Source: a virus. Taken from it: a stretch of DNA of 64,000 bases. The stretch covers positions 1 through 64,000 of the IMG/VR virus record IMGVR_UViG_3300027759_000085. One strand, given 5' to 3'. The position numbers and the translations under genes were made by a program. Each line of letters opens with the position of its first letter. The first letter of the stretch is position 1. The notes below the pieces were generated by a model. The model worked only from the letters and a program-made list of their open reading frames with translations, made no database searches and was not told the origin of the DNA. Shown in pieces: positions 17,811 through 45,555 of the stretch.

Positions 17811-18165
17811 GATAGATAAAAAAGGACTTACCAAGAATCAGCTAGAGTACATTACTAAGATAGAAGAAGAGTTAGATTTATTTAAGAACGATGGAGCTAA
17901 AAGACTATTGTCTGAGTTGTCTGGTATAGCTGGAGACTTTGCCGATGATATAGTTAAAATAAGAAGCGGAGAAGGTGTTGGTGTTTACATTAATGAGAAC
18001 GCCAACGACAAAATGATAGACAAGGTAATGAAGCTTGTAGATAAGATGGATAAGTTTAAGTTACTTGCTCAACTAAGCTCTCCTGAAGAAGAAGTAAAAG
18101 AAATTAAAAAAAGTATTAGAAGACCAGAGGACTTAGCATTCAATGTCAACAAGGATAGATCATAA
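17803..18165 (+). CDS. hypothetical protein, candidate small terminase
   Basis: 120 aa, helical and charged, no recognised family. Overlaps the end of the GroES-like gene by 8 bp and the large terminase start by 23 bp. Size, helical content and position immediately before the large subunit make it a candidate small terminase subunit, by context only. Confidence 0.55.
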   Translation: MSKIDKKGLTKNQLEYITKIEEELDLFKNDGAKRLLSELSGIAGDFADDIVKIRSGEGVGVYINENANDKMIDKVMKLVDKMDKFKLLAQLSSPEEEVKEIKKSIRRPEDLAFNVNKDRS

Positions 18166-20207: not shown

Positions 20208-22661
20208 ATGTCGCAATCAACATTATACGGATTTCCATCCCCATTACTTCCCGATCAAACAAAGAATAGTCCAGAGTATGGATTAAAACTTATGAAAAGT
20301 GCATATGGGCAATGGATTAATGGATATGGTGGTTTTAGCCAAAAGCAAAGACAAACCAGATTTGATTACAATAAAGCTTATGCTCAGGGTATGCAGCCAA
20401 TGCAGGAGTTCCTTGACTATTTAGATATTAATGGTCAACAGCCATATTCTAATATAGACTTTACTCCACTACCTATAGCTATACCTTTATTACAAAGAAT
20501 CAAAGACAGGTTCAATCAAAGAATTGAAAAGATAAGATGTAACTCTATTGACCCAGTTAGTATATCTAAAAAGAATAAAGAAAAAATGGATGCTAAGTTC
20601 CGTATGGAATTTAAAGATCAAATTGCTCAGATAGAACAACAGTCAGGAGTTCAGTTAGAGGATCCAGATGCTTTTACTCCAGAGGATACTGAAGAGTTAG
20701 ATGTTCACTTTGGCTTTACGTATAAACAACGTGAAGAGGTGATGATGGAGCAGGGTATTGATCTTGTTTTATATGATAACCAATGGACTGAAACTAAGAA
20801 CTCTATTCTTGATGATTTATTGATTTATGGTTTTGCTGGAACAAGAACAGACATAGATAACAATGGCCGTATTAAGGTCCGTAAAATAAATCCATATAAC
20901 CTGATTGTTTCTTATAGTGAAAGAAGCGATATGAATGACCTTGAATGGGTAGGTGAAGTTTTCTATATGTCAATCACTGACGTTAGACAGCAGTATCCAG
21001 GAAAGATTAGTGAAGAGGAACTGTTTAACCTATCAAAGAGTATGGTAGGTAAGTTTAATAATCCTGCATCATTTACATTCACGTGGAACTACCAGTATGC
21101 AAATGCTATAGCAAGACCATACGATGCATTTAAAGTACCTGTTCTTCAGTTGTCATTAAAAACACTTTATAACATTACTTACGAAAAGAATGAAGATAGG
21201 TTTGGTAAAACTATATTAGATAAAACAACTAAGTTTAAAGATGGTAAGGAATACGTTAAATCTAAGCCATTCTATGTAGAATACGAGGGTGCATGGATCT
21301 GTGATACAAACTACCTGCTTCATTGGGGTATAGCCAATAACATGGCCAAGCCAAATGATAACTTACAGGAATGTATTCTTCCGTACACTATCTATATGTA
21401 CAACAATAATAGGATGACTAATAAGCCAGTCATTGAAACTATTATTCCTTCTATTAAACAAATGCAGTTAGCTCACCTACAGATTCAAAAGATTGTTTCT
21501 CAGGCAGCTCCAGATGGTTATACTGTAGATATTGCAGGTATGGCTGATGTAGATTTAGGTAATGGTAAGGGTGCATTACAACCAATGGAGTTAATTCGTA
21601 TCTATAAACAAACGGGTGTTATATTCTATAAGGGCCAAGTTGATGATACAGAAGGTAATTCAAGACCTCCTATTACTCCATTAAATGTTCCATTCACAGC
21701 TAAACTAGAATCATTTATTAACCTATACAATTTTGAACTAAACAAGTTAGAAAGAATGCTAGGATCTAATTCGTTAGACCAAGGTATTATATCTAATCAA
21801 GCTGTAGGTAAAGGAGTACTAGATTCTGCTAGACAGATTGGTGAGAACTCTATTAACTATGTATACAACTCATATCTAAATATATTAGAAAGAACTGCAA
21901 AGCTAACTCAAATGAGATTGTGGGATATCCTAGTATTTGGTAAAAAAGGATATGAAGGATATAAGTATGCATTGGGTAGCGATAGAGTAGACTACATCAA
22001 ACTAGAAGCAGATAGTGAATTTGAAAAGACAAACTTTGATGTTAAGATAGAAGCAACTATTGATGATAATGCAAAGCAAATGTTAGAAAATAATATTCAG
22101 CAAGCATTGGCTCAACAAAGTATCGAACTAGAGGATGCTATACAAATAAGACTATTAGATAATCCAAAGGCGGCTAATTACTATTTAGTTTCGGCTCAAA
22201 AGAAGAGACGTAAACAAAAAATGGATGATGCCAGGTCAAACAGTGAGATGCAAATGCAACAAGCCGTACAGGCAGCTCAAGCTAAATCACAAGGAGAACT
22301 TCAACTAGAACAAGCTAAGGCTCAGTTTAAGCTTCAACAATACGAAGAAGAGTTAGAAAATGATAAAGAGAGAGAGACACTTAAATACTTTAATATTCTT
22401 AGAGTTAAAACGCTTGAAAAACTATTGGAGCAAGGCACGAGTATTGATGAAATGCCTTCGTTTATATTTGATGGTATTGACGCTGTTGTTAAAACTCAGA
22501 AACAGATTATACTGGAAGAACTGCAAGATCAAGCAGAGCAACAACAAGCTAAAGAACAACAGATAGCTGCTCAACAGGAACAACAAATGCAACAGGAAGA
22601 GCAAGGTGTTCCTATGGAAGAAGAAGAAATTCCAGAAGAGGCACAGCAACCAATGATGTAA
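20208..22661 (+). CDS. portal protein
   Basis: 817 aa. Between terminase and scaffold/capsid genes, the canonical portal position, with a portal-like body: helical N-terminal region, central domain (residues about 180-560) and helical stem. It forms the dodecameric DNA channel at one vertex. The last about 130 residues are a Gln- and Glu-rich coiled coil (about 675-817), perhaps reaching into the capsid. It is longer than most portals but within the range of crAss-like phages. Assignment rests on order and general character. Confidence 0.8.
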   Translation: MSQSTLYGFPSPLLPDQTKNSPEYGLKLMKSAYGQWINGYGGFSQKQRQTRFDYNKAYAQGMQPMQEFLDYLDINGQQPYSNIDFTPLPIAIPLLQRIKDRFNQRIEKIRCNSIDPVSISKKNKEKMDAKFRMEFKDQIAQIEQQSGVQLEDPDAFTPEDTEELDVHFGFTYKQREEVMMEQGIDLVLYDNQWTETKNSILDDLLIYGFAGTRTDIDNNGRIKVRKINPYNLIVSYSERSDMNDLEWVGEVFYMSITDVRQQYPGKISEEELFNLSKSMVGKFNNPASFTFTWNYQYANAIARPYDAFKVPVLQLSLKTLYNITYEKNEDRFGKTILDKTTKFKDGKEYVKSKPFYVEYEGAWICDTNYLLHWGIANNMAKPNDNLQECILPYTIYMYNNNRMTNKPVIETIIPSIKQMQLAHLQIQKIVSQAAPDGYTVDIAGMADVDLGNGKGALQPMELIRIYKQTGVIFYKGQVDDTEGNSRPPITPLNVPFTAKLESFINLYNFELNKLERMLGSNSLDQGIISNQAVGKGVLDSARQIGENSINYVYNSYLNILERTAKLTQMRLWDILVFGKKGYEGYKYALGSDRVDYIKLEADSEFEKTNFDVKIEATIDDNAKQMLENNIQQALAQQSIELEDAIQIRLLDNPKAANYYLVSAQKKRRKQKMDDARSNSEMQMQQAVQAAQAKSQGELQLEQAKAQFKLQQYEEELENDKERETLKYFNILRVKTLEKLLEQGTSIDEMPSFIFDGIDAVVKTQKQIILEELQDQAEQQQAKEQQIAAQQEQQMQQEEQGVPMEEEEIPEEAQQPMM

Positions 22662-26969: not shown

Positions 26970-27614
26970 ATGGCAGTTACAACTTACGGATATCTTGCTG
27001 AACAAATACTTTCAACCTATTACAAGGGTGTAAGAAGTGATGATAGTTCTTATTCATTAAAATACATTGCATCCATGTTGGCACAGGAAGTTGCTTTCAT
27101 GGCCAGAAAGAATGCATTTGAGAATGGGAACAATGGTGACATTACTTATATCAATGATACATTCATTAGTACGTTTAAGAGCTTGGCTGTGGCTACAGAT
27201 AATATTAGTTTGGAAAAGTACATCGTGCTACCATCTATGCCAACAGCTTTACCTAATAACCAAGAGATTGTATCGGTATCATTAAATAGGAAAACAAATA
27301 AAACATTTATCCCAATGAAGAACAAGGATAGATTTGCTCAGGCATTTCTTCCATCTATAAGAGGAGTTGTTTTTTATTACATAGAAGATGGTAAATTATA
27401 TTTTGATAATCCAGAAAACTTTATATTCACTTCAATTACATTAAAGATGGCAGGTGCTCTACCAAGTGGTGATATATTGGATGCTCAACTTAATATACCT
27501 AAAAACTATGAGACCGAGATTATAGATAAGGTATTAAATAGATTACTTTCTGTTAACAGATTAGGAAGAGATTTGACTAATGATGGTGACGATATAAATA
27601 ATAACATTCAATAA
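26970..27614 (+). CDS. head-tail adaptor / ring protein 2
   Basis: 214 aa, similar size and character to its two neighbours, starting with helices and continuing with strands (KYIVLPSMPTALP). Stop overlaps the next start. Probably part of the short-tail collar. Confidence 0.65.
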   Translation: MAVTTYGYLAEQILSTYYKGVRSDDSSYSLKYIASMLAQEVAFMARKNAFENGNNGDITYINDTFISTFKSLAVATDNISLEKYIVLPSMPTALPNNQEIVSVSLNRKTNKTFIPMKNKDRFAQAFLPSIRGVVFYYIEDGKLYFDNPENFIFTSITLKMAGALPSGDILDAQLNIPKNYETEIIDKVLNRLLSVNRLGRDLTNDGDDINNNIQ

Positions 27615-28387
27615 TGAGTAGAATTGGACTTAAACAAATTATTGCTGAACTTATAGACAGCAAGGATTCTAGCTCACATGAGTTTAGAAGAATGTATAAT
27701 ATAGGTGTAAGAGGTGTTCGTGAATTTAACACTGACATTGTAGGAAACTTCTCTACTAAACTATTAGATGTTAATGCTAATAAAACAGCAGACCTTCCAG
27801 AAGATTATGTATCCTATTCTAAAATGGGAGTTATTAATGAAAAGGGAGAGATTGTTACACTTAGATCTAATCCTCAATTAAGTAATTATAATATTGGACA
27901 CTCACTTAACCCTGATAGATTCGAAGGAGTCCCAGGTATTGGAGCTGTATCATATCCTGCTATACCATATAACTATCCATATATATACTATAACTTTTTT
28001 GTATCTAACCAGTCTTTCAATTTATTTGGTCTTGCTGGTGGTGGACAAGATATAGGTCAATACAAAGTAGATGAGGAGTGTGGAATAATTATCTTTGGTC
28101 CTTACTTTAAGTACGAAAAGATTTTACTTGAATATCTTGGTGATGGAATGGATAGAGATTGTGATGACTATATGATAGACAGTCGTGCCGCTGAAGCTAT
28201 GTTAGCTTACATCAGATGGAAGACAGCCCTTGATAACCCTAAGAAGTATGGACAAGGGATTATGAGGGATTACAAGCAAGAATATAAGTCTGAGAGACTA
28301 AAGGCTAAGATGCGTATAAATAAAATTGTTGTGTCTGAATTTGAAGATATACAAAGAATTACCAATAAATTAGCACCAAGATCATAA
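27614..28387 (+). CDS. head-tail adaptor / ring protein 3
   Basis: 257 aa. N-terminal helical IGLKQIIAELIDSKDSS, then a segment DLPEDYVSYSKMGVINEKGE, a pattern of gp4/gp11-like adaptors. Overlaps the following tail gene by one base. Together with the two preceding genes it forms the likely connector set. Confidence 0.65.
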   Translation: MSRIGLKQIIAELIDSKDSSSHEFRRMYNIGVRGVREFNTDIVGNFSTKLLDVNANKTADLPEDYVSYSKMGVINEKGEIVTLRSNPQLSNYNIGHSLNPDRFEGVPGIGAVSYPAIPYNYPYIYYNFFVSNQSFNLFGLAGGGQDIGQYKVDEECGIIIFGPYFKYEKILLEYLGDGMDRDCDDYMIDSRAAEAMLAYIRWKTALDNPKKYGQGIMRDYKQEYKSERLKAKMRINKIVVSEFEDIQRITNKLAPRS

Positions 28388-31300
28388 TGATAGAAAGTAA
28401 AGTATTCGCAGGTGGAGGTCTTAATCAAGATGTTGATAATAACTTTTTAAAACCTAATGATTGGAAGGATGCTTTAAATATTAGGGTTACTGATAGACTT
28501 AACAATACAGATAATATTATTTCTAATATAAAAGGAAATACATCTGTAAGTTATGCTCTCCCTGCAGGAACTAATAAATGTATTGGTGAGTACGCTAATG
28601 AAAAGGCTGGAAAATTTTATTCATTTATATGGAACAGTAATAATGATCACTCTATAACCGAATACGATCCTACATTAAATACGATAACAAAAGTCCTGCA
28701 GGCTAGTTATCTTAATTTTCAGGAGTACCAATTAATTAATGGAATAGGAATAGTTGATGATAATCTATTGTACTGGACCGATGGGTTTAATCCTCCTCGT
28801 GGTATAATGATAGATAGGGCCAAGGAAACTAGTCCTCCATATTATACTAATTCAGTAAGTATATCGTTAGCTAAACCACCACCATCTGTATTAGTTACTC
28901 CATCTTATGCAAATGATCCAAATTACCCAGCTACACCTGTAGCAGTAAACAGATTAAAGGGTCAACTATTTCAATTTAGATATATATATATTTATGAGGA
29001 TGGATCTAGAAGTGCATGGAGTTCATGTAGTACGGTTCCATATCCAACACTAGAGGTTAATAGTACCGTATCTAGTGAGGCATTTAGAAATAATAATATA
29101 GTTTTAAATTTTGATGTAGGTACAAAATATGTTAAATCAATAGAAGTAGCTGCACTAGTTAAAGGTATTGCATCAACTGGTACTACCCAAGATTGGTTTG
29201 TGATTTTAGCTAAAAGTAGAGCTGCTTTAATTGCTGATACAGGATCATATAATTCATTAACAAATGCTTATGAGTATAGATTCTTTAATGATGGTTTATA
29301 TCAATCTGCTGATGTTGTAGAAACTGATTTACCTTATGATTATGTACCATTAACATCTAAGTGTTTAGATATAATAAATGGAAATGTTCTTATATTAGCA
29401 AATAATAAAGAAGGATATGATAACATAACTACAGATGTAACTTTAGGTGTAACATATGTTGCTCCTGATATTGGGGCAAGAATGACTGTTTATCATCCAT
29501 TAGTAACAACTAATTATTTTTTTTCTGGTGTTCCCGTAACTGGAGATGTAATTAATTATGATCTTGATTATTGGGAAGGAGGAGCAGGTCCACCAGATCC
29601 ACCAACTGGTAATATAACTGGTACATATACTGTTACTGGATTGCAATCTGGAAATTTAAATTTAACTGTAAATGGTTTAAGTAGTCAAATTGCATTTGAT
29701 ACTGGCATGGATGTAATAGGTACAGTAACTGTACAGCCAAATGGTTCAATTTTATTAAGTTTTGCTTCATCTCCTGAAGAAGTTGTTTTTGGTGATGAAT
29801 TCTCTATGACAGTAACATTGGCAGCCTCATCATTAACAGCATCTTTGTCAACCTATAAAACAAATTCAAGATACCAATTTGGATTAGTTTATTATGATGA
29901 TTTTAATAGAAGTACATATGTACAAACTTCTGATAATTTTATAGTTTCAACAGATTCATTTGGCGAGGTAGAAGGAGATAATCCAGTAATATCTTGGCAA
30001 ATAGATCATGCAGCTCCATCATGGGCAACTACATATCAATGGGTTAGAACAGAGCAACTTACACATAGTAAATTTTTATTTTGGTTGGCTACAGCAATAG
30101 CTGCTCCAGCAGGTAAAAATTATTATGAACTTAATATTAGTTCGTTAATTACATATAGTGCAACAAACCCTGACAGTATATTAAACTATGAATATACTCC
30201 TGGTGATAGATGTACTATACATAAGATTGGAGCTACATGGCAATCTTCATTTGATGTAGCCATTGTTGGTGAAGAAGTTACCTCTTCGGTACATAAGATT
30301 TGGATAGAAAAAGGTATTTCGCTCACACCAGGTACAACAGACGTTCTTATTGAAATATATACTCCTAAGACAAGGTCTAATCAACCTACCGAACAATTCT
30401 TTTATGAATTTGGTGAAGTATATAGCTGTACTTCTGGAACACACACAGTACTTACTGGAGATTTTACACTAGGCGATGTATTTTATAGAGGAAGATTATT
30501 TTCTGCTGGAGTTACAACGAATGTAGAAGATCCAAACTTTAGTGATTTTTATATTAGTAGCTTTAGCTCCAATGGTAGGGCTAATATATTCTCACCACAA
30601 GCCAAACAGCTCACTCTGCCGACAGATGTAAGGTTCAGTGATACCTATGTACCAAATACAAATATAAATGGCTTGAGCAGGTTCTATGGAGACGCATTTG
30701 AGACATACGACAGGGTAAACGGATCTATACAGAAAACAACTGTAAGGGATAACTACTTAATATTATTCCAAGAGTTAAAGATAGGTTATGTTCCAATAAT
30801 GCAAAGCATACTTGAGGACCAAGGTTCTGGTAATGCAGCTAACGTAGCAATCTCAAATAAACTATTAAACAAGGTTAGATACTTTGCTGGAGACTTTGGT
30901 ATTGGTTTAGTTCCAGAATCTATGGCCAGGTTTGCTGGTGTTATATACTTTGTAGATTCTAACAGAGGTCAGGTAGTTAAGTTATCTGATGGTTTACAAC
31001 CTATAAGTACTGCTGGTATGGATAGTTATTTCACAAGTAAATTAACATCTATCAAAAGCTCACCTAATGTAAAAGTTATAGGATCATATGATCCATATAA
31101 CGATGAGTATATAGTAAGCTTTAAGATAGCTACTGCATCAAACGCTGGAGATGCTACTTTAGCATTTAGTGAAATGATAAACAGGTGGACATCATTCTAT
31201 TCATTCATACCTGATTCTGGTGGTTATATATTTAATCAATACATAACACATAAAGCTGGGGTATTATACACACATAACAACAATAGTTCTTATGGTACGT

Positions 31301-31650
31301 TTTATGGTACCAACACTGAATCTTATGTTGATATTGTATTTAACAATTCACCAACTCTAATTAAAACATTCTTAGGGTTCATAGAGCAATCAAATACAAA
31401 ATGGACTCCAACTGTTATCTCAACAAGCAATGCTCAAGCATCTTCATTAAATGATACTGATTTATTTGAAAAGGAAGATGTATTCTTTGCTAGTTTCTTA
31501 AGGGACTCAAACTCACCTAATGGATTAATAAATGGAGATGATCTAAAGGGTAACTGGATTAGGTTAAAGCTTACTGAAAGCAATGTAACTAAGTCTACAT
31601 TATTCTCTGTAGATTTAAGATCTATACCATCTTATCAAGGTATAAAATAA
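28387..31650 (+). CDS. large tail (nozzle/muzzle-type) protein
   Basis: 1087 aa, beta-rich. Begins MIESKVFAGGGLNQDVDNNFLKPNDWKD; this opening (a glycine-rich turn, then DxDxxxxxLxPxxyxdAlNir) is typical of tail nozzle/stabilisation proteins in short-tailed phages. Repeated immunoglobulin-like or beta-propeller-like segments follow. Probably forms the tail tube end through which DNA leaves. No catalytic motif. Confidence 0.7.
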   Translation: MIESKVFAGGGLNQDVDNNFLKPNDWKDALNIRVTDRLNNTDNIISNIKGNTSVSYALPAGTNKCIGEYANEKAGKFYSFIWNSNNDHSITEYDPTLNTITKVLQASYLNFQEYQLINGIGIVDDNLLYWTDGFNPPRGIMIDRAKETSPPYYTNSVSISLAKPPPSVLVTPSYANDPNYPATPVAVNRLKGQLFQFRYIYIYEDGSRSAWSSCSTVPYPTLEVNSTVSSEAFRNNNIVLNFDVGTKYVKSIEVAALVKGIASTGTTQDWFVILAKSRAALIADTGSYNSLTNAYEYRFFNDGLYQSADVVETDLPYDYVPLTSKCLDIINGNVLILANNKEGYDNITTDVTLGVTYVAPDIGARMTVYHPLVTTNYFFSGVPVTGDVINYDLDYWEGGAGPPDPPTGNITGTYTVTGLQSGNLNLTVNGLSSQIAFDTGMDVIGTVTVQPNGSILLSFASSPEEVVFGDEFSMTVTLAASSLTASLSTYKTNSRYQFGLVYYDDFNRSTYVQTSDNFIVSTDSFGEVEGDNPVISWQIDHAAPSWATTYQWVRTEQLTHSKFLFWLATAIAAPAGKNYYELNISSLITYSATNPDSILNYEYTPGDRCTIHKIGATWQSSFDVAIVGEEVTSSVHKIWIEKGISLTPGTTDVLIEIYTPKTRSNQPTEQFFYEFGEVYSCTSGTHTVLTGDFTLGDVFYRGRLFSAGVTTNVEDPNFSDFYISSFSSNGRANIFSPQAKQLTLPTDVRFSDTYVPNTNINGLSRFYGDAFETYDRVNGSIQKTTVRDNYLILFQELKIGYVPIMQSILEDQGSGNAANVAISNKLLNKVRYFAGDFGIGLVPESMARFAGVIYFVDSNRGQVVKLSDGLQPISTAGMDSYFTSKLTSIKSSPNVKVIGSYDPYNDEYIVSFKIATASNAGDATLAFSEMINRWTSFYSFIPDSGGYIFNQYITHKAGVLYTHNNNSSYGTFYGTNTESYVDIVFNNSPTLIKTFLGFIEQSNTKWTPTVISTSNAQASSLNDTDLFEKEDVFFASFLRDSNSPNGLINGDDLKGNWIRLKLTESNVTKSTLFSVDLRSIPSYQGIK

Positions 31651-31697: not shown

Positions 31698-32321
31698 ATG
31701 GCAGGAGGATTTCCACTTGGCTCATTTGCTAAATCTTTAGGCTCGGTAGCATCTGCTGGAGCTAGTGCTACTCCATTGGGTATGGGTATAGCAGCAGGAG
31801 CTGGACTATTAAAGGCAGGCTTAGGTTTTCTTCAGCAAGCCAAGGGTAAGAAAATGCTTAAGAATACTGTTGATCCAGGTTATGTTATACCTAAAGGTTA
31901 CGAACAGAATTTAGGTCAGGCTGAACAAATGGCCAAGGGTGGTATACCATCTCAGGAGTATAACCTAGCTAGTACAAATATACAAAGAGGCACACAAGCA
32001 GGATTGCGTCAACTTAGTAGAATGTCTAATCCTTTTGCAGCTATATCTGGATTGGCAAGAAGTCAATCTGATTCATTTTCTAAACTAGACGCATCTAATG
32101 CATCAGCCAAGAGACAAAATATCTTACAGGCTATGGGTGCAAGACGTGAGATGGCAGGACAGCAGTTAGCTCAACAGCAATACTCTCAAAATAGATACTT
32201 TGATAAAGTAAATGAGGCTAATGCTAGAATTGGTGCAGGCACTCAGAATATGTTTGGTGGATTAGGTGACATAGGAACTGCTGGGATATATGGGTCAATG
32301 GGTGGTAAAAAGAATGCTTAA
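31698..32321 (+). CDS. internal virion-type protein
   Basis: 207 aa. Gly/Ala-rich hydrophobic N-terminal 45 residues (LGMGIAAGAGLLKAG), then Gln/Asn-rich helical part and Gly-rich tail. Composition resembles ejected internal virion proteins that enter the host envelope. First of four such genes. Confidence 0.6.
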   Translation: MAGGFPLGSFAKSLGSVASAGASATPLGMGIAAGAGLLKAGLGFLQQAKGKKMLKNTVDPGYVIPKGYEQNLGQAEQMAKGGIPSQEYNLASTNIQRGTQAGLRQLSRMSNPFAAISGLARSQSDSFSKLDASNASAKRQNILQAMGARREMAGQQLAQQQYSQNRYFDKVNEANARIGAGTQNMFGGLGDIGTAGIYGSMGGKKNA

Positions 32322-32362: not shown

Positions 32363-33721
32363 ATGGCAATTAAAACAGGAATAGGTGTAGGTGCAGCTCA
32401 AGTATTTGATACTAGCGGTATTATGAATGCTTATGGTAGACAGATAGCTCAACAACAGAGAGCAGAAGCAGCTCAAGCACAGAGAGAATATCTTAGTGCA
32501 GAAAAAGAAAAAGAAAGAGCAGAAAGAGAAGCAGCTAGATTTGATGAAAATATAGCAGATATAATGGCTAGTGCTAAAACTTCTGGTGCTAGAGATGTTG
32601 ACGTTCCAGATATTACTAAGTCATATAATGATATAAAAGACTTCTATTCAAAGTCTGGTTCATTAAAAGATTCCGATAAGCCATTGTTTAGAGCAGAGCT
32701 AAGAAATAGAATTAACTCACTTAATGAGTATGCTCAGCGTTCAGAAAAACTGTCTAAGGATGCATTGGCTATATCTTCAGAGATTGCTAGAAATGAGTGG
32801 GATTATGATCCTGCATCAGTAGCAGATATAAACGACATATTAAAAACTCCATTAAGTAAACTTGGAGATAGAGCAAACTTAGATCCTCAGAGGTATAAAA
32901 GGCTACCTAACTTTGGATTGATAGATACTATTATAGACTCTACATACGAAAAAGGTAATGAGAACGCTAAGTTTGCTGGAGAGGTATTTGATAAGGGTAA
33001 AAGATTTAATGTAAAAAGAATTGAGCCAGCTTTTATTCAGAATAATTTAGTACAGCGTTTCACAAGCTCACCAGAAGCATTAAAAGCTATTAGTAGTCTA
33101 TATGTAAGAGAACTTGGTAAACAACCAACAAACGAAGAACTTATCAATTATATAATGGATAAGTATAAGACCAAGCACAAGTTTGATTATATTGGTGAAG
33201 CAAGGGACCTTAAGGAACCAAAGAGTGGAACTGACGAACAAGATAAATACACTTATAGACAACAGATAATTACTGGAGCACTTGAAAATGATCCAGGTTC
33301 TATAAATAAAATAAAGGCTGCATTGCCTCCAGGAAGTAAAATTATTCCATATAAGTCACTTAGCACAGGCAAATCAAAAGGTGGTTATAATTCATTAAAA
33401 ATAACTATACCAGGAGGTGAGGTGGACTCTAAAGGTAATCCTATATTACCATTAGAACAAATAATTGAATCGTCTAGAGGAGAGGGTGTTATTAAACTAA
33501 ACAGAATATTAAATACCTATACTGGAGAAAACATATCTGATAGTAAATTAGGTATTAAAGGTGGAAAGCCTGCTGGTCAGCAAATAGAAGTTAATATACC
33601 TAAACCAAATGCGTCTACTCCTAGTATACCTACTGCTACAAGAGCTGAATGGAAATCGGCTGGATGGAGTGATTCAGAGATTAATGAAGGAATTAAACAA
33701 AAAGTTATAAAAGTTAAATAA
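32363..33721 (+). CDS. internal virion-type protein
   Basis: 452 aa. Gln/Ala/Glu/Arg-rich helical N-terminus (AQQQRAEAAQ, EKERAEREAARF), then mixed domain, and a C-terminal SNRP-rich linker before a short helical tail. Probably an ejection protein; stop overlaps the start of the 1814-aa gene by one base. Confidence 0.6.
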   Translation: MAIKTGIGVGAAQVFDTSGIMNAYGRQIAQQQRAEAAQAQREYLSAEKEKERAEREAARFDENIADIMASAKTSGARDVDVPDITKSYNDIKDFYSKSGSLKDSDKPLFRAELRNRINSLNEYAQRSEKLSKDALAISSEIARNEWDYDPASVADINDILKTPLSKLGDRANLDPQRYKRLPNFGLIDTIIDSTYEKGNENAKFAGEVFDKGKRFNVKRIEPAFIQNNLVQRFTSSPEALKAISSLYVRELGKQPTNEELINYIMDKYKTKHKFDYIGEARDLKEPKSGTDEQDKYTYRQQIITGALENDPGSINKIKAALPPGSKIIPYKSLSTGKSKGGYNSLKITIPGGEVDSKGNPILPLEQIIESSRGEGVIKLNRILNTYTGENISDSKLGIKGGKPAGQQIEVNIPKPNASTPSIPTATRAEWKSAGWSDSEINEGIKQKVIKVK

Positions 33722-36700
33722 TGGCTGATTTACCAAAACCAAGTGATTTATTGAAAAAAGGATTGCCTAAACCACAAGACTTATTGGAAAAAAAAAATCC
33801 TATTCAGAACGGTTCTGGTATTGGTACGCAGACTTCATTCTCTGGCTCAAAGCCTTTCCAAACCCAAGTAGATACTAAAATACCCTCTGTATTAACAGAG
33901 CAAGGTAAGGTAGGTTATGAGCAAGAAATTCAGAAAAAAGCTCAACAAAAACAAAAACTTTCAGAACAATTAAAGAGTGCAAAAGATGTTTATTATCAAG
34001 CTCAAGGAGATGCATCGTCATTTTCTTTGTATGATGGATATCAGTCTTCTATAAAAAATATAGATGATGAGATTTCTAAAAACTATCCAGATGAAGCTAC
34101 CGTTTCACGAACAGTTTCTGGTCAAGAAAGTTTTCAAAAATATAAAGCCAAAAGAGATCAACTTATTTCTGATAGAGAAATATTGAGTCAAGAGTCAAAA
34201 AATGCATTAAGATATATAAATCCAAAAATTGAATCTGATATAAATTTAGATTTTGAAAAAAATGGGTTAGATAAATTCACAAGAGATGTAGATGGTTTTA
34301 AAGTTGCCGATGAATATAAAATAGATGATTATGCTAAACAATACGCAGAAAAATCTGGTTTATCTGATGATGGTACATTTAAAAAACTTGTTTATGATAA
34401 ATTAAAATCATCTGTTTCATTTAAAATAAGTGAACCTGAAATTAAAAAAGAGTTTGACAAATTATACAAAAGTAAAACTGGAGTAACTCCAGATGAAGCT
34501 ATTGAAAAAGATTTTTTAAATAATTTTATTGAAGGTAAAAAAATACAATCTAATTTAATTCTTCAAGTTGAATCATTAAACAAAGAAATAAAAACAAAGA
34601 TTAATGATTCAGCCAAGTCCTTATCGATTGAGTATAAGCCAATACTTGAATCTATTAATACTAATTATAAAGTTGAAACAGATGAAATAAAATCTAAAAT
34701 TGAACAACTTAATCAATCTTATAAATCAGGCCTTATTTCAAGACAAGATTATGAATTAGCATTTACTAACACTAAAGCTCAGTTTGATTTAGCAGATGAA
34801 CAATATAGACAACTATTTGACGCTGAATCAAAAAAGTATCTTAATAATCAGAATGAGCTATTTTCTAAATACAACAAAAGATTTAATAGACAAGTTTCTG
34901 AATTTAAAAGCATGGCAGATCAACAACTGTCTGATGCATCAAGTAAATACGGTAAGTCGTATAAAATGTCACCAGAGGTAAAGAACCAATATGAATCTCT
35001 TTGGGGTCAAGCTACTAAAAACTATCTATCAAAAGAAGAGGCTGTTAAATATGAATTAGACAGGTCTTCTTTAATGGGTAATATCGGTGGACAATTTGCT
35101 AAAAATCTGTTTATGGGTATTGGTGGTGGTATTAAAAGTATATCGTCAATGTATGATTTTGATGCTGGATATGTTTTGGGAGATTATTTGGAAAACTCAT
35201 TTACTTCATCAAGCCCAGAAATAAAATCTGGATGGGATTTACTTGATCCTATTAAACTACAAACATCTACGGGTAAAATGATTGGTGGTATGGCTCCAAT
35301 ATTAGGAGCTTCAGCTTTAACAGCTGCTGCAACAAAAAGTGCACCTACTGCTTTGAGATTATTAACTACTGGTCTTGGTAACTATCTTATAGAGACTGCT
35401 CAGATTGGTGGTGGAGTTAAGGATCAAGTTTTTCAAAATACTGGAAACATTGCAGATGCCAATAAAGCTGCTAAAAAAGTTATGGATGCAAACTTGTATT
35501 TGCTACCACTATACGCTTTAGATGGGTTACCATTTCTTGGTAATGTTACATTGGGTATTGGTAATACTTTTGCTAGGGCTGGAGCTAAGGCTGCTCTAGA
35601 AGTAGTTACTGAACTCCCACAAGAATATTTTCAAGGAATATTTGAAGATTTAGCAGTTGCTGATAAACCTATATCGGACACATTTAAAACTATGACTCTT
35701 GATAAATTCGAGAACACAGCATTAAATGTTATACCCACATCAGTTTTATTGGGTGGTGGTGGGACAGCTATTCAGGGCGTTAGAGAAAATATTTCTAAAA
35801 TGCAAGGTCGTTCACTTGCTGCAAAAGTTGATTTATCTAACCTTACAGAAACCACTAAAAAACAATTTATTTATGATACGGTTTTAAGAAGGGGAGATGT
35901 TTTCTCTAAGGCATATGTTTCTTCTTTGTTTAACTCTGGCAATATAAATGAACAAGAGATGGAGTCGTTTAGTAAAATGATTGACGACTCGGCTAATATA
36001 ATGACAGAATCTAAAAAAATTGGATTAAATAAAGCTCAATCAAAAGTTTATGCTGCATTAAGATTTGATTATTTACAATCTAAAAATGAATTTGATTCAG
36101 AGCAGGATGAAGTATCAAAGAAAGTATATAAAGCCAAAATGGATTCAGCAGAAAAGTCTCTAAATACTTATCTTTCTGGTGGCAAACCAGATGCGGTTCT
36201 TTTGACACTACCAAATAATGAGCAATACATATATAGTTTTGAAACACTAAATTCAATTATTAATGAGGGTGGTGAAATATTAAATCAAATTATAAGTGGA
36301 GAAGTTTCTATAGGTTTACTTTCTGATAAATCAAACCCGAAAGCAAAAGAATTATCCGATAAATTAACTAAATTAAAACAAGATGCCGTTCAAGTCAAAA
36401 CAGCAGGTCAAGTTCCTGTACAGCCAGAAGCCACAATTGGCGAAGAAGTGGAGCAAGGAAAACCCAAATCAGAAGCTGAAGTCGTTACCGAAGAAGGTGT
36501 CAAGGCAGAAGAAGTAGGTAGTAATGTAGGGGAAGATTTGAAAATAACAGGAGATGTAGGTATTGATAAATCAAACATTCCTCTTGATAAAACAAGTCAG
36601 CCAGTTAATTTAGGGTCAATATTAGCAACAAATGGTGATAAATTAGATATATCCGCAGAAGAAATAAATTTAAGTTATCCTGGTAAAAAGAAATACGTTA

Positions 36701-39165
36701 GGAAAATAACAGCGACCAAAGGAGATGAAAAGGCAATAATATCATTTTGGGAGAATAATAATAAATTAATAATACTTCACGTAGAAAGCACTAAAAAAGG
36801 TGCTGGATACGGAACAGATTTAATTAATAAAGTTATTAAAGAGGCAAAAGACGCTGGAATAGAAGAGATAGTAGCAGATAACGTAGAAAGTCTTTCATCA
36901 GAAAAATATTGGGAGAAGCAAGGATTTATTCAAGACCCTAATTCCCGTAGTAATAGAATTTTACCGTTATCTACTGCTCAAGAACAAACCCCTGGAAAAC
37001 AAGTAGAACAACTAAGAGCAGAAGAACAAGCTGAACTAAAAGCCGCAATACCTAACGCAGAACAATACCTAACAGATGGTAAGGTTGATAAGGCTAAACT
37101 AACTGATACTAAAGATAAAAAAGCCTTTAAGAAAATCTACGATAAGTACGATAAGCTCATTACTCCTTTGTTGCCTAAGAAAGAAGCTAAAGTAGAAGAG
37201 GCAGCAACCTATAGTGGAGTAAATAAATTATTTAAATCTAATTTTGAACTTTCTAATATAGGAACACCTGAACAATACTCTAAATATTTAGGCACTATAT
37301 TCCCCGAAAGTAAAGTAAAAGGCATTGTTTATCATGGAAGTAAGACTAAAAAACCTACTCAGATTTTTGTAGAAACTTTTATTGGTAAAAACAATAAAAT
37401 ACTTGGTGCAGGAAATGGATTCTATTTCACTTCTGATATTAATTATAGCAAGGTTTATGGAGAAACTACTTTAAGTATAATTGATATTAAAAATCCAATT
37501 GATTTTAATTCAGATAATTATGATTCATTAGAAGACTTAAAAAAAGCTGCTAGAGAATTATCTAATAAAGGAGATGGAGTAATTGATTCAAGAGAAAATA
37601 ACTATTATCCACAAGGCGAAGAAAAACTTAAATTATCATCAAGTCCTGATTATATTGTTTTTAAACCAAGTCAAATACATATATTAGGAAGTAACCAAGA
37701 TATAGAAGGGTTTAAAAATTTTGTTAGTAAAAAAGAAGCCAAAGCTGATGCTGTTATAACACCAGACAATTCTTCTAATTATGCAAATATGACAGAGGAT
37801 GATAAAGGCAACTTTGTTTTTTTCCATGTGGGTAAAAAAGGATATAAAAAAATAAAAAAATCATCTGGTGCAACTACGGCTACATCTAAAGAAGAAGCTT
37901 CTGCATTATCTAAGGTTGGTGGAGTTGCTATGTATTATACATCTCCTTCTGACTCTGAAACAATGGTTACTGGAGAGGGTAAGTATGCAGTTGCTGTACC
38001 AAAAGAAAAAGTATATGACTTTAATACAGATAAATTAAATTTTATTGAAGAAGCTAAGGCTAGACATGAATCTGAAAATCCAGGAAAGGCATTTGATTTA
38101 AATTCTCAGCTCGCCTATGTAACTAAGATAGCAGGTGAGAATGGTTTTGACATGGTTGTTGCTCAATGGGATGGAAAAACAAGAGCTCAAACAACAAAAG
38201 AATTTATACCATCAGATATTCAAGAATCAGAAGGTAATGTTGTTAAGAAGAAATTCACCGAGGATTACGAATCTAATAAGAAAAAAGGATTTGAACCAGT
38301 AATACCAGTTTCAAAATCTAAAAAACTAGCTGATCTTTATAATAAGATTAATGAGATAAGGAATAAAGAAAAAAAGTATGATGATCTATATAGTTTATAC
38401 GCAGATAGCAGTAAATTACAACAAGAAGACATAACAAAACTTATAGAAGAATCTAATCTTCCACAAGAGATCAAGGATGAGTATAAAGATATTATTGAGT
38501 CTAAAGAGGAATCTAGGAGATCAAAAAATATAGCAGGTAAAAAGGTAAAGGTTAAAAATGCTCCAGAAGGCAATCATTTAAATATAGGCCTAAATGAAGG
38601 TAGAACAAAGAAAAAAATGTCAATTGATGACGTTTTATCTAAATTACCTAAAGATGTAAAAGTTATTTCTTATTCAGAAATTGATGTAGCTAGCGGTGAG
38701 CCAACTCTTGTTATAGAAACAGATAGACCACTTACTGCATTAGAAATAATCAAGTTGCTTGATGATACTAAACAACAGGCTATACCTCAATTATCTAACG
38801 GAGAAGGTGTTTTATATGACACTGAAAGAGGTACTGAAAATGGTTGGGGTGAATTTGATCCAAATCTTTTTATTTTACAAGATGGTAAAAGTTTAAGCCA
38901 ATACACAAAAACTAAAGTTCCTAAACTAAACGAATCAAATGTAGAAAATGCGATTGAGTTACTAGATGATATTAGGGATAACAAAAGAAAAGCTGAACGT
39001 GCAAGTAGTAGAAAAAAAGCTGATCTTGAACAGAAAATAACAGAAGCTGAAACTGAATTAGATAAAATACCAGATGAAACTAAAATAGTTAGGGTTATTA
39101 ATGATAACTTTGATAAGATTAAAAAAGACTTAAAAGAACAAGGACTACTAAACGTAAAATGTTAA
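33721..39165 (+). CDS. 1814-aa polyvalent virion protein with GNAT and two ADP-ribosyltransferase-like domains
   Basis: Order: Lys/Pro-rich N-terminus (PKPSDLLKKGLPKPQ); long charged coiled-coil region to about residue 440; Gly/Ala-rich hydrophobic part (about 460-680) suited to membrane insertion; Glu/Lys linkers; a GNAT-like acetyltransferase domain (about 965-1085: GAGYGTDLINKVIKEA, EKYWEKQGF); a first ART-like domain (about 1195-1335: VYHGSK, GNGFYFTSD, IKNPIDF, FKPSQIHIL) as in ART-PolyVal families; a second (about 1360-1500: FFHVGKKG, MYYTSP, TKEFIPSD). Such polyvalent proteins are injected with DNA to modify host targets. Domain calls are from motifs. Confidence 0.75.
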   Translation: MADLPKPSDLLKKGLPKPQDLLEKKNPIQNGSGIGTQTSFSGSKPFQTQVDTKIPSVLTEQGKVGYEQEIQKKAQQKQKLSEQLKSAKDVYYQAQGDASSFSLYDGYQSSIKNIDDEISKNYPDEATVSRTVSGQESFQKYKAKRDQLISDREILSQESKNALRYINPKIESDINLDFEKNGLDKFTRDVDGFKVADEYKIDDYAKQYAEKSGLSDDGTFKKLVYDKLKSSVSFKISEPEIKKEFDKLYKSKTGVTPDEAIEKDFLNNFIEGKKIQSNLILQVESLNKEIKTKINDSAKSLSIEYKPILESINTNYKVETDEIKSKIEQLNQSYKSGLISRQDYELAFTNTKAQFDLADEQYRQLFDAESKKYLNNQNELFSKYNKRFNRQVSEFKSMADQQLSDASSKYGKSYKMSPEVKNQYESLWGQATKNYLSKEEAVKYELDRSSLMGNIGGQFAKNLFMGIGGGIKSISSMYDFDAGYVLGDYLENSFTSSSPEIKSGWDLLDPIKLQTSTGKMIGGMAPILGASALTAAATKSAPTALRLLTTGLGNYLIETAQIGGGVKDQVFQNTGNIADANKAAKKVMDANLYLLPLYALDGLPFLGNVTLGIGNTFARAGAKAALEVVTELPQEYFQGIFEDLAVADKPISDTFKTMTLDKFENTALNVIPTSVLLGGGGTAIQGVRENISKMQGRSLAAKVDLSNLTETTKKQFIYDTVLRRGDVFSKAYVSSLFNSGNINEQEMESFSKMIDDSANIMTESKKIGLNKAQSKVYAALRFDYLQSKNEFDSEQDEVSKKVYKAKMDSAEKSLNTYLSGGKPDAVLLTLPNNEQYIYSFETLNSIINEGGEILNQIISGEVSIGLLSDKSNPKAKELSDKLTKLKQDAVQVKTAGQVPVQPEATIGEEVEQGKPKSEAEVVTEEGVKAEEVGSNVGEDLKITGDVGIDKSNIPLDKTSQPVNLGSILATNGDKLDISAEEINLSYPGKKKYVRKITATKGDEKAIISFWENNNKLIILHVESTKKGAGYGTDLINKVIKEAKDAGIEEIVADNVESLSSEKYWEKQGFIQDPNSRSNRILPLSTAQEQTPGKQVEQLRAEEQAELKAAIPNAEQYLTDGKVDKAKLTDTKDKKAFKKIYDKYDKLITPLLPKKEAKVEEAATYSGVNKLFKSNFELSNIGTPEQYSKYLGTIFPESKVKGIVYHGSKTKKPTQIFVETFIGKNNKILGAGNGFYFTSDINYSKVYGETTLSIIDIKNPIDFNSDNYDSLEDLKKAARELSNKGDGVIDSRENNYYPQGEEKLKLSSSPDYIVFKPSQIHILGSNQDIEGFKNFVSKKEAKADAVITPDNSSNYANMTEDDKGNFVFFHVGKKGYKKIKKSSGATTATSKEEASALSKVGGVAMYYTSPSDSETMVTGEGKYAVAVPKEKVYDFNTDKLNFIEEAKARHESENPGKAFDLNSQLAYVTKIAGENGFDMVVAQWDGKTRAQTTKEFIPSDIQESEGNVVKKKFTEDYESNKKKGFEPVIPVSKSKKLADLYNKINEIRNKEKKYDDLYSLYADSSKLQQEDITKLIEESNLPQEIKDEYKDIIESKEESRRSKNIAGKKVKVKNAPEGNHLNIGLNEGRTKKKMSIDDVLSKLPKDVKVISYSEIDVASGEPTLVIETDRPLTALEIIKLLDDTKQQAIPQLSNGEGVLYDTERGTENGWGEFDPNLFILQDGKSLSQYTKTKVPKLNESNVENAIELLDDIRDNKRKAERASSRKKADLEQKITEAETELDKIPDETKIVRVINDNFDKIKKDLKEQGLLNVKC

Positions 39166-39168
39166 ACC

Positions 39169-39663
39169 ATGAAACAAAAAATATTATCTGAAAAGATAGA
39201 ATCTAAACTAAATGAATTAATAGGTCAAGAACTATATGCTATGTATGCGTATAAGGCTATTGCTAACTGGTGTCAAGATGCTGGGTTCTTAAGAGCACAT
39301 CCATTCTTTATTGAGGAAAGCTCAGATGAGAAACTACACGCTGAAATATTGGAGCAGTATATATTAGATATGGGAGGAGTTCCTGACCTAAAAAATATAG
39401 ATAAGCCAGAGGAGTCATTTAAGAGCCTTACAGACGTAGTTTATGCTTCGTATGATATGGAGGTAGCATTAGGAGAGAAGTACGCTGAGTTCGCCTTAGA
39501 ATGCGTTACAGAAGATGCTATTACTTTGACTAAGATACAAGAGTTTATCAAGATACAGACTGAATCTATCGGATTTTATGGCGATATTTGTTCTGCAGCA
39601 AAAGGATTGTCTACAAGCAAGTTTGAGCAGTTAATGTTAGAGAAGATTTTAGTTAAAGGATAA
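39169..39663 (+). CDS. ferritin (non-haem, FtnA-like)
   Basis: 164 aa four-helix-bundle iron storage protein. The di-iron ferroxidase ligands can be placed: Glu21, Glu54 and His57 (in DEKLHAE), Glu98 and Gln130, with Glu132 close by, so it should oxidise Fe(II) and store it as mineral in a 24-mer. No haem-binding Met pattern of bacterioferritin. It lies three bases after the polyvalent ejection protein and ten before another large one, in the same strand and operon, so it is expressed late with virion proteins. Whether it is packaged, protects virions from oxidative damage, or buffers host iron at lysis is unknown. Confidence 0.9.
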   Translation: MKQKILSEKIESKLNELIGQELYAMYAYKAIANWCQDAGFLRAHPFFIEESSDEKLHAEILEQYILDMGGVPDLKNIDKPEESFKSLTDVVYASYDMEVALGEKYAEFALECVTEDAITLTKIQEFIKIQTESIGFYGDICSAAKGLSTSKFEQLMLEKILVKG

Positions 39664-39672
39664 TAATTAATT

Positions 39673-42600
39673 ATGAGTAACTGTAAGTTTACATTAAGAG
39701 ATGAAAATGGTAATATTATCGTTGATGGTGTTAGCGAGCAAGAGTTTAAAAAGTATTTAGCTTTAAATGCTTCTACTGCTCAAAAGTTACTTGGTGAATC
39801 TCGCATCATTGGTGAAGCAATAGAGCCAGAAGTTTTTTCTGAGTTTGAAGATGTTTCAGATGAGGATGCAATGGCTATGCTTAAGAATAGCATAGAAACT
39901 CCATTTAGAAATAAAGAAAAGCTAGAAAAGACTTCAAAGAGTATATTCTCAAGATTCATGACAGCTCTTGTTGACTCTCAATATAATGTAATAGATAAGT
40001 TATTAAAAGATTTTGGTTACGTTGGTAAAATAGCTGTAGCTGCATTAAAAAACAGAAAAGGATATACTGGCATATCTTCATTAAGAAGTAGGTTATTCAA
40101 TAAAGAAATATTTGATGACTTAGGGGTATTCCCCAATGTAGATATTGATGGAGTAAAAGTTTCTGAAAAGGATCTGTTTGATGTGTTTCTAAATCTTAAT
40201 CGTATAATAAAAATCGATGAAAGAATTAGGGACAAGTTTTATAATTTTATGTCATTGCGTGACAAGTTAAAAAACGATGATAGTTTGACAGATGATCAAA
40301 AGATTGAAATTAAAAATGAAATAGATAATCTTAGGGATTATTTAGTAAAGAGGGATGCTATAGATGTAAAGAATGGTGAATACGTTCAGAAACAATATAG
40401 GCATACTGGCAATAAAACAGCTGCTACTGCTAGAGCTGAATTAAGGTCAATTAAAAAATCAACCCCTGAATTATACAAGAAATTTGAAAAGAAGGGCCAG
40501 TCTTATTATGATGCATACAAGGCATTGTTATATGATCAGTATAAAAACAATATGATTAGCAAGAGTGTTTATGATGAACTTATTGCATATGATTATATAC
40601 CAACAAGATACATTCAGCATATTATTGAAAGTGAACTTGCTGAATCTGGCTCTAAAGCTGCATCTAAACTATCTACATCTATAAAGAACTTAACTGGTGG
40701 TAGTGATGCCGATGTTATGACTAACTTTCAGGCTATACTTGAGATATATACTAATCATACATATAAACAAATATTTGAAAATACATCGGCATTATCTCTT
40801 GCAAAAGCTATTATAAAAAAACCAGTAACTAAATCAGAATCAAAAGAATTAATTAAAGCATCTGATGCTAAATTAAACCCAGCTGGAGTTCAAAATATTA
40901 ATCTTGAAATGTATGTTGATGAACCAACTGGATTTGATAAGTTTGGTAATCCAACATATGGAGATATACCTGTAGGTATGGATGTTATTTACTTCTATAG
41001 GGATAATGGTAAGAAGGAAAGAATTGTAGCACCAAAGGATTTTGTAGATATATATTATGATCGTAACGGTTTAACATCACCAAAGGGTGAAGATATACTT
41101 AATAGGACTAGTAAGTGGACAGGTATTAATATATTTAAATCTTTAATAACAAAAAATAATCCTGCGTTTGGTATTTACCAGTTAACCATGGATGCTCCAC
41201 AAGCTATAATAGCAACTAATGCTTATCCAGATTTCTTTTTAGGAAGTTTCATGTTAGCAAGTGATTATGCATCTGTATCAAAAGACATTGTTGACTTTAT
41301 TCGTGCAGATAAGTTAAGTCCATTATTTAAGGAAGCTATTAATGCAGGTATATTCTCTGACTTTATATCTACAGAAACTGATTTACTTAAATTCTCTCCA
41401 TTAACAAATATTAAAGGTGAAACAAATTTTTTAACTACTGTTAAATTTTTAAAATACAAATCTGGTAAAGCTGCTCAAACAGCATTAGATGGTATAGCTA
41501 AATTAAATGAAGGTATAGAATATGCAACTAGATTAGCTGTATATAAGCGAGTTAAAGAAAATACAACTAAACAATTTTTAAAAGAAAATAATGGTAAGCC
41601 ACTTAGCTCAGAACAAGAGTTTGAGGTTAGAATGCTAGCTGCTGAGCAAGCTAGAAATGTAGTTGACTTTTCAAGATCTGGAACACTTGGTAAACCATTA
41701 AATAAACTGTTTGCATATTTAAACGCTGGTATTCAAGCATTTTATTCATCATCAAGATCATTAAAGGATAACCCTACCAAGGCTGCTGTTCTTTTAGGTG
41801 AGATTGGTTTGGGTACTACGATGTTATTAGCTTATTCTCTTGGAGATTTCGGTGGTGATGATGAGGAAAAGAAGAAAAGATTAGATGAATATATGTCACT
41901 TCCTGATTACCAAAGATCAAACTACTTTAATATATACAATCCTTTTAGTGAAGAAGGATCTTCTTATAGATTTATAAGATTATATAAACCACAATTATTT
42001 AGAGGTTTTTTAAATATGGTGGAGCAAGGTTATCTTAAGATGGCTAAGAAGCAAGATATCGATCAGTCTCAAATAGTTGGAGCATTTATGAATGATTTAC
42101 CAGTAGACCCATCTGGATTAAATATATTAACCAGGAATCCATTAGTAAATGGTATGATTAAATACAATTGGAACTATGATGCATTCAGAAAACAATATGT
42201 AGTAAGGAATGAGGAGAAGATAGAAAACTGGGCAGAATATGATAAGAATACTGGTGATATATATAAAAAGGCAGGTAAACTTACAGAAGGTATTTTTGGT
42301 ACCGAGGGTATATCTCCTAAGAGAGCTCAGGCACTTGTTGAATCTCTTATTGGAGACCCAAGTAAAAACACTACTACTGCTCTACTTGATAAAGCTGGTC
42401 GTGTAATGTACTATGGTGTAACTGCCAATTCAGAAGGTCTTAATAAAGAACTACCAGCACCTGGTGAAGAAGCAGATTGGTTATTTAAACTATCTGGATT
42501 AAAGGGTAGAATATTTACTAAAACACCAGAAATAGATTACGAGTTTGCAGATAAACTTAAAAAAGAAGAAAGAAAGCAGTATACTCAAAACAAGTTTATT

Positions 42601-43839: not shown

Positions 43840-45555
43840 ATGTTAACTCCACAGGAACTATTATATAGAATTCAAAATGGTGAGCAATTCTTTGCTTTAC
43901 TAATGGATGAATATGTCGATGAGACAGAGGAGTTAGAACCAGTAGATAGTGAATTAAAGCAAAGGATAAACTGTATATTTCTAATTCTAGAGGCTATAAG
44001 CTTCCTATACTATAGAGGTATCTATACTAACGATCCTGTATGCATGGCCTTGTACAAGAGGTTAATGAACTGCTTAGGTATATTTGCTGGATCTCCACTA
44101 TTTATACTAGACCCATCTATAATATTTCCTGGTATTATACTACCTCCTATATTCCAAGGACCTCAGGGATTACAAGGTCCTCAAGGGCCACAAGGTCCAC
44201 GAGGCTTTCAAGGATTTCAAGGTGTTCAAGGATTTCAAGGTGTACAGGGTGCAGTTGGACCACAGGGTACTCAAGGAACACAAGGCTTCCAAGGCTTTCA
44301 AGGAGTACAAGGTTTCCAGGGTTTAACGGGTCCACAAGGCTTCCAGGGTGTACAGGGTACACAAGGGCCAAGGGGTTTCCAAGGTTTTCAAGGAACACAG
44401 GGTGCTCAGGGAGTACAAGGAAATAATGGAACAAGTGTTGTCTTAAAAGGTTCGGTAGCTACTGTAGGTAATTTACCATCGGTAGGTAATACTGTTGGTG
44501 ATCTATATATTGTACTGGCTAGTGGTGATGGATATGTTTGGGATGGAAGTGCATGGAATAATGTAGGACCTATTGTGGGTCCACAGGGTGCTCAAGGGAC
44601 TCAAGGATTTACTGGTACACAGGGTGTTCAAGGATCTACGGGTCCCCAAGGTATTACTGGTGCCCAGGGATTCCAAGGTGTACAAGGTACACAAGGACCT
44701 ATAGGGACTCAAGGTTTTCAAGGTACTCAAGGACCTACGGGTCCACAAGGCTCTACGGGTGCACAGGGAGTGCAAGGATTCCAAGGTCCTACTGGTCCAC
44801 AAGGTCTTACTGGACCTCAAGGTTTTCAGGGATTTCAAGGATTTCAAGGAGCAACTGGTAGTCAAGGCTTTCAGGGTCCTACGGGACCTCAAGGTGCTAC
44901 AGGTGCTCAGGGGCCAACAGGACCTCAAGGTGCTACGGGTCCTCAAGGTCTTACTGGCCCACAAGGACCAGGTGGACCTCAGGGATTTACAGGACCACAG
45001 GGACCAAATGGACCCCAAGGACCTCAGGGTTTTACTGGACCTCAAGGACCTACTGGACCGCAAGGGTTTACAGGTCCTCAAGGAGCTCAGGGTGTACAAG
45101 GACCTACAGGATTTATTGGTAGTTTAACTACATCTGGATCATCAGGTGCAGCTACATTAGTTGGCTCAACCTTAAATGTACCAATATATAGTGATGCTCT
45201 TGGTGGTTATCTACCATTGAGTGGTGGAACATTGACTGGTGCTCTAGGAGGTACATCTGCTTCATTTAGTAGTAGTGTGACTGCATCAGCATTCTTTGAA
45301 AGTTCTTCTATTAGAGGTAAAAACATTATAGCTACTAATCCATTACTTTCACTTAACATTGATGTAATAAAATACACTCGTAAAACTGATGTAAATAAGG
45401 ATATAAGATATGGTTATTCTGCTGAGCAGATACATTCATTAATGCCTGAACTAACAGACAGGGATGTAACCTCAGTTAAGTATTTAGATGTACACACCAT
45501 ATTGATTGCTCAGTTACAGCAAGAGATAAGGGAATTAAAAGATAGGTTAAAATAA
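43840..45555 (+). CDS. collagen-like tail fibre 1 with C-terminal intramolecular chaperone
   Basis: 571 aa. Residues 1-100: globular anchor with LMDEYVDE and YKRL..CL. Residues about 106-196 and 246-424: Gly-X-Y repeats dominated by GPQ, GFQ, GVQ and GTQ, forming a collagen-like triple helix, interrupted by a small beta domain ([17 protein letters not shown]). Then a short beta stretch and an S74-type chaperone remnant beginning SSIRGKNI near 489 with C-terminal trimeric coiled coil. Binds the host surface. Shares its anchor with fibre 2. Confidence 0.9.

Follow-up and report, generated by a model that had tools for sequence, protein, structure and literature searches.

A phage-encoded ferritin gene between putative ejection-protein genes in an uncultivated relative of crassviruses

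INTRODUCTION

Iron genes in phage genomes are usually read as metabolic extras from the host. In gut Bacteroides phages of the 'Gratiaviridae' and 'Flandersviridae', Dps and Mn-catalase have been interpreted as intracellular protection against reactive oxygen species (ROS) (PMC8008677). Proteins that travel with the virion are known from phi-crAss001, in which large cargo proteins (gp45, gp46, and RNA polymerase subunits) are stored in the head and tail and then ejected (PMC10172136), and it has been argued that polyvalent and MuF-linked proteins are packaged and delivered (PMC5512222). Our literature searches for "phage-encoded ferritin," and for ferritin tied to phage virions, found no such report.

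Here, we analyze a ferritin gene in a 64,000-nucleotide stretch of DNA (the window, meaning the whole stretch) that is part of a 65,451-base virus record, IMG/VR IMGVR_UViG_3300027759_000085. The original prediction, made from the sequence alone, described a probably active ferritin inside an ejection-protein cassette, where it was placed between a polyvalent virion protein and an LPD38-like one, and suggested packaging, protection of DNA, or sequestration of host iron as possible roles.

RESULTS

Judging from its genes, the window phage is crassvirus-like and a relative of the crassviruses. Both a crassvirus-type muzzle and a crassvirus-type ring protein scored above the Pfam cutoffs (Table 1). 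In tblastn searches, the terminase and portal proteins matched marine Flavobacteriia phages of Elemovirus, Pervagoviridae, and Pachyviridae at 23-27%, and few others; these relatives include Flavobacterium elemo phages, Cellulophaga phages phi38:1 (Pervagoviridae), phi13:2, and phi46:3 (both Pachyviridae), Tenacibaculum phage Gundel_1, Maribacter phage Panino, and one assembled genome from Manatee Spring. No named crassvirus was among the tblastn matches listed. Because its terminase and portal are not recognizably those of gut crassviruses, we treat the window phage as a crassvirus relative and do not file it as a member. The window, phi38:1, and elemo have a common gene order, exact except for a small ORF, that runs from terminase and portal through head, ring, and muzzle genes to an ORF of about 200 aa, one of about 450 aa, and then one or more giant ORFs. 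The 207-aa ORF of the window returned no match in family searches; at the same position, phi38:1 and elemo encode virion structural proteins of about 200 aa. The 452-aa ORF matched neither Pfam nor PHROG families. A sigma-70 scan of the cassette gave 52 sites against 53.8 expected.

Elsewhere in the window are two long genes for collagen-like fibers, at 43840-45555 (Pfam Collagen 3.5e-45) and 46370-50248 (2e-52); the latter also encodes a Peptidase_S74 chaperone domain. Three glycosyltransferase genes lie at 9025-10472 (minus strand) and 54300-56099 (plus strand). One has a GT_PLOD domain, from a family that takes its name from collagen lysyl hydroxylase, and the other two have GT2 domains. 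It is conceivable that these enzymes glycosylate the fibers.

Table 1. Positions in the window of the ferritin gene and of the virion and cargo features discussed in the text
Feature	Position	Strand	Evidence
Terminase large subunit	18143..20155	+	phrog_6681 2.7e-89
Portal protein	20208..22661	+	phrog_6547 3.3e-96; 23-27% to cultured flavobacterial phages
Crassvirus-type tail ring protein 2	26970..27614	+	Pfam CrAss_Ring_2 1.2e-6
Crassvirus-type muzzle protein	28387..31650	+	Pfam crAss_MUZ 4.7e-22; phrog_14478 virion structural protein 1.4e-73
207-aa ORF between muzzle and cargo	31698..32321	+	~70% identical in L001 and L002; gene order
452-aa ORF at start of cargo region	32363..33721	+	72% / 39% identical in L001 / L002
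Upstream cargo ORF, 1814 aa, modular	33721..39165	+	Orthologues in L001 and L002
C-terminal segment of upstream cargo ORF, common to other ferritin phages	38833..39165	+	Alignment, HMM
Ferritin, FtnA-type, 164 aa	39169..39663	+	PF00210 4.3e-22; E21, E54, H57, E98, Q130; AlphaFold2; Foldseek
N-terminal segment of downstream cargo ORF, MxxC motif, diverged	39673..39942	+	Alignment, HMM
Downstream cargo ORF, 1095 aa	39673..42960	+	Pfam LPD38 5.9e-10

Most of these relatives have a cargo region that consists of a single giant ORF, with lengths of 1692 (phi38:1), 1990 (phi13:2), 1829 (Panino), 3694 (elemo), and 3859 aa (the Manatee Spring genome); in phi46:3 it is split into two pieces. In the window it consists of 1814 and 1095 aa with the ferritin gene at the break, 3 bases downstream of the first ORF, as originally stated, and 9 bases upstream of the second, where a gap of 10 had been given. 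The 1814-aa ORF corresponds to the N-terminal half of a region that most often forms a single giant ORF; it matches the elemo phage's giant structural ORF at 50% across 144 aa, and its counterpart in the related contig L001 matches the giant ORF of Manatee Spring (2e-59). It was originally described as a polyvalent virion protein, but it has no Pfam domain of its own, and PHROG gives a weak acetyltransferase match alone. The term "polyvalent" therefore rests on homologous cargo ORFs, namely, one with an ART-PolyVal domain in contig L154 and the giant ORFs of elemo and Manatee Spring. The 1095-aa ORF does contain the LPD38 domain attributed to it and is homologous to residues 942-1747 of the Panino giant ORF and to phi46:3 gp121. 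The analysis supports the placement of the ferritin inside an ejection-protein cassette.

The ferritin ORF is complete from ATG to stop and scores 79 bits with the Pfam ferritin model, for which the cutoff is 24.5. A search of the PDB matched 208 distinct sequences, the best 60 of which are all ferritins (one a ferritin chimera), with Campylobacter jejuni 1krq as the top chain (1.7e-12). All five ferroxidase ligands named in the original prediction (Glu21, Glu54, His57, Glu98, and Gln130) are found at the positions given there, and in an alignment of 24 phage and 3 Bacteroidota ferritins these five and Tyr28 are the only invariant columns. From that alignment, AlphaFold2 produced a model of the window protein with a mean pLDDT of 93.6 and a pTM of 0.88, in which the helices 8-38, 43-67, 87-115, and 117-144 are followed by a C-terminal helix E (151-163). 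Foldseek placed the model closest to Vibrio cholerae ferritin 3qz3 (TM 0.93, rmsd 1.3 A) and also aligned it with Escherichia coli FtnA 1eum (TM 0.91), so that the predicted structure keeps the full ferritin fold, fifth helix included. Among the three closest homologues (the window, L001, and L002), NG86 dN/dS values of 0.14, 0.13, and 0.06 show that the gene is under purifying selection and is not a chance reading frame. The window protein is an intact ferritin and, as first proposed, is probably active.

Assignment to a ferritin class used the ligand numbering of FtnA, Bfr, and Dps. The third iron site (site C) of E. coli FtnA, made up of E49, E126, E129, and E130, is not conserved in the window protein, where two of the four positions differ (I129 for E126 and S133 for E130), leaving a center of the plain two-iron kind. 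Site C positions vary across the phage ferritin family, and ferritins in general do not need this site. Bacterioferritins are marked by a heme-ligand Met beside the first bridging Glu and by Glu/His ligands at the second site. The window protein has Lys55 after Glu54, and Gln130 and Ser133 in place of Glu/His, so we rejected a bacterioferritin identity. A Dps identity (no helix E, inter-subunit site) was likewise rejected because FtnA structures match best; viral Dps entries in BFVD align with the model at a TM of ~0.66 or less, with an rmsd of at least 3.5 A in most. The same BFVD match list contains other entries named Dps and three weak fold matches to longer proteins of uncultured phages that are named as prohead proteases (A0A6J7WIS1, A0A6J7WPK9, and A0A6J7XDU5). 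These matches could reflect fusions of a ferritin-like domain to a head protein.

The three-gene arrangement of the window recurs in two IMG/VR contigs, L001 and L002. Their ferritins are 87% and 80% identical to that of the window and their LPD38 proteins 77% and 61%; the counterparts of the 452-aa ORF are 72% and 39% identical, so that conservation is highest for the ferritin among the three. The presence of the gene is therefore not isolated to one genome, and its neighbors are conserved with it. Ferritin is absent from seven complete related genomes, each searched whole, and from two contigs found through distant LPD38 relatives (L008 and L009); the contig L004 starts within its LPD38 gene and is thus uninformative. 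A tblastn search of 50,697 phage records with the window ferritin found none at 1e-5 and only weak matches up to an E of 10. Separately, a hypothetical protein of the Caulobacter jumbo phage CcrSC (gp362; L015 5839-6393) has a ferritin match of 20 bits (E 1e-4) that lies below the Pfam cutoff, and phage CcrBL9 has a similar ORF.

Ferritin genes of this kind extend well beyond the close relatives. A ferritin-like probe sequence composed for the search, which served as a search handle only (as did a composed Bacteroides ferritin probe), led to 8 IMG/VR contigs, and an alignment of their ferritins led to 29; the results given here draw on the retrieved records themselves. These 29 further contigs carry ferritin homologues 29-37% identical to that of the window, and the cultured-phage collection had no close match to them. 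Seven residues (E21, E54, H57, E98, Q130, Tyr28, and E50) do not vary among the 28 full-length sequences compared, some of which are near-copies.

In this wider family, cargo or portal genes recur beside the ferritin. In crass-like contigs, most of which have muzzles, the ferritin lies between giant ORFs (L145, L147, L153, L155, L157, L160, L161, L164, and L165, as well as L163, which is truncated on the upstream side). In L153 and L155, the ORF downstream of the ferritin matches phrog_22602, a virion structural protein, and the giant ORF of phi13:2. In L154, L158, and L159, the ferritin directly follows a giant ORF, with lysis-type genes on its other side; in L154 this giant ORF is the one with the ART-PolyVal domain, and the next gene is endolysin-like. 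Six contigs (L166, L168, L170, L172, L173, and L175) belong to phages unrelated to the crass-like ones and have the order terminase, adaptor, Mu-type portal (PF06074), ferritin, and MuF-type protein (PF04233), with overlaps of 1-4 bases; these families were assigned on L166, to whose portal those of the others are homologous. In L171, the ferritin follows an ORF that has a NUDIX domain and weakly matches a portal protein, and it stands 168 bases ahead of a head maturation protease. The exception is L162, in which the ferritin is beside replication genes with a DNA polymerase two genes on. The ORF upstream of the ferritin in L147 (4665-9971) contains a ddrB-like ParB domain (PF18763, 1.3e-25), a known polyvalent-protein domain. 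A domain of ~150 aa from the upstream cargo ORF of the window (37780-38247) and of L154 is found in the downstream ORF of L155 and L157, so cargo domains have been shuffled around the ferritin.

Flanking cargo proteins differ or are unrelated among the crass-like ferritin phages except in their terminal segments. The upstream ORF usually ends in LExKGxxKxxxxCP (LKEQGLLNVKC in the window), and the downstream ORF begins MxxC..Y.GKEY.FEEFATMLHDG, which in the window has diverged to MSNC. This pair was found in the window and in L145, L147, L153, L155, L157, L160, L161, L163, L164, and L165, and HMMs of both segments had no convincing match among the giant ORFs of ferritin-less relatives. L155 and L157 carry the same pair at a ferritin-free junction too, which weakens the idea of docking tags for ferritin only; the segments look like tags of cargo junctions, possibly for packaging, ejection, or docking.

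To place these proteins among cellular ferritins, we used a maximum-likelihood tree of 72 proteins, for which Bacteroidota were the cellular phylum sampled. All 24 phage ferritins group together with support of 100/100, and within this group those of the window and its two close relatives branch apart from the other 21. A first tree had a very long branch (L114), and the phage clade stayed when the tree was rebuilt without L114 and L137. The single group argues for an old, phage-specific ferritin lineage that is common to several phage groups and separate from the sampled Bacteroidota ferritins. Among the matches listed from Bacteroidota genomes, the best reach 23-33% identity; a profile of the phage ferritins matches 219 of 395 Bacteroidota genomes, and no relative was found when bacterial genomes were scanned with the ferritins of the window, L001, and L002.

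DISCUSSION

Our best explanation, in which we place moderate confidence, is that the window encodes a competent cage-type ferritin that has long been held in the virion/ejection module and is translated late, packaged, ejected, and iron-binding. The ferritin would be translated late in infection together with the giant cargo proteins, would most likely enter the head alongside them close to the portal, and would be delivered during ejection, at which point it could oxidize and bind Fe2+. Binding of Fe2+ may reduce Fenton damage to the DNA and the ejected proteins; alternatively, the benefit may come from withdrawing iron or from weakening a host response that depends on iron or ROS. Gene position makes late co-expression with virion proteins likely, and for packaging and ejection we would put the chances at about even. 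A broader proposal, that a distinct ferritin clade serves as virion cargo, loaded near the portal and co-ejected with the genome, in crass-like and Mu-portal phages alike, is more tentative and falls a little short of an even chance. If it is true, iron oxidation would be among the first activities that a phage brings into the cell.

Packaging is favored because ferritin is found again and again next to cargo, portal, or MuF genes in phages whose architectures are unrelated. We also count for it that crassvirus cargo proteins are virion components (PMC10172136) and that delivery has been argued for polyvalent and MuF-linked proteins (PMC5512222). Against it stand the DNA polymerase near the ferritin of L162, the lysis-type genes of L154, L158, and L159, the seven ferritin-less relatives, and the intracellular role given to phage Dps and catalase (PMC8008677); a late-module position alone is, moreover, no proof of packaging. 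Ejection faces an objection of its own. A 24-mer ferritin cage is about 12 nm wide, and a folded cage cannot pass through the tail. Because the cage is too wide, an ejected ferritin must travel as subunits or unfolded and then reassemble. Such passage and reassembly have been proposed for the cargo of phi-crAss001 (PMC10172136).

The same data fit a late role in the cytoplasm, in which the ferritin is a non-virion auxiliary protein that acts inside infected cells, where it would store iron or keep ROS low up to the time of lysis, and its location in the virion module serves late expression only. We regard this as a substantial possibility, though we lean toward doubting it. The conserved active site would suit any iron role, the Dps and Mn-catalase of gut Bacteroides phages offer a precedent in protection from oxidative stress (PMC8008677), and the ferritins of L162 and of the L154 group adjoin replication or lysis-type genes. 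A cytoplasmic ferritin could, however, reside anywhere in the late region, which leaves its recurrence beside cargo, portal, and MuF genes unexplained.

A structural role is unlikely. Under this explanation, a ferritin bundle or cage would be an internal head or portal-proximal scaffold that organizes cargo, with iron chemistry secondary; the portal, MuF, and giant cargo neighbors are consistent with it, and docking could occur at the conserved segments that end or begin the flanking ORFs. Those segments also flank the ferritin-free junction of L155 and L157, however, and if shape alone mattered we would not expect all five ferroxidase ligands to be retained in sequences as little as 29% identical. 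A recent and neutral acquisition of the ferritin gene from a host is highly improbable and was rejected on the low identity to Bacteroidota and on the tree, for although ferritins are common in that phylum, even the best Bacteroidota matches listed are distant, the phage sequences are one clade, the locus is conserved between phages whose neighboring genes have diverged, and dN/dS is well below 1.

Several groups of uncultivated phages own a ferritin, nearly always between genes for head proteins that are presumed to be ejected. A phage-specific ferritin whose active site is conserved, and which stays near ejection and portal genes in unrelated phages, points away from a metabolic extra and toward iron control during the assembly of virions or the delivery of their genomes. 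It also flags a function linked to iron in uncultured crassvirus relatives and provides a concrete protein with which to ask whether virions carry or handle iron.

The Dps and Mn-catalase of gut phages are, like the window protein, iron or ROS proteins of the ferritin superfamily in Bacteroidota phages, but they belong to other families, and PMC8008677 describes no ejection cassette for them. The phi-crAss001 cargo genes also follow the muzzle and include large ORFs; PMC10172136 mentions no ferritin, however, and the cargo of the window is not recognizably alike by Pfam or PHROG. Polyvalent and MuF-linked delivered proteins share the LPD38 domain, which is a polyvalent-protein domain, and the portal and MuF contexts of the L166 group, whereas ferritin goes unmentioned in PMC5512222 and that of the window is a separate gene and not a fused domain. 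Two BFVD database entries show the ferritin fold in other phage-encoded proteins: A0A8D9C9X5, a "putative bacterial non-heme ferritin" of an uncultured marine phage, and A0A6J5MFB8 of an uncultured Caudovirales phage, a fragment 33% identical to the window protein. The closest likeness in structure is to FtnA-type ferritins (1eum, 3qz3, and 1krq), which have the whole-length fold with a fifth helix (TM 0.91-0.93) and the five ferroxidase ligands; the window protein differs from them in being ~25% identical, in the absence of the third iron site, and in being encoded by a phage within its virion module.
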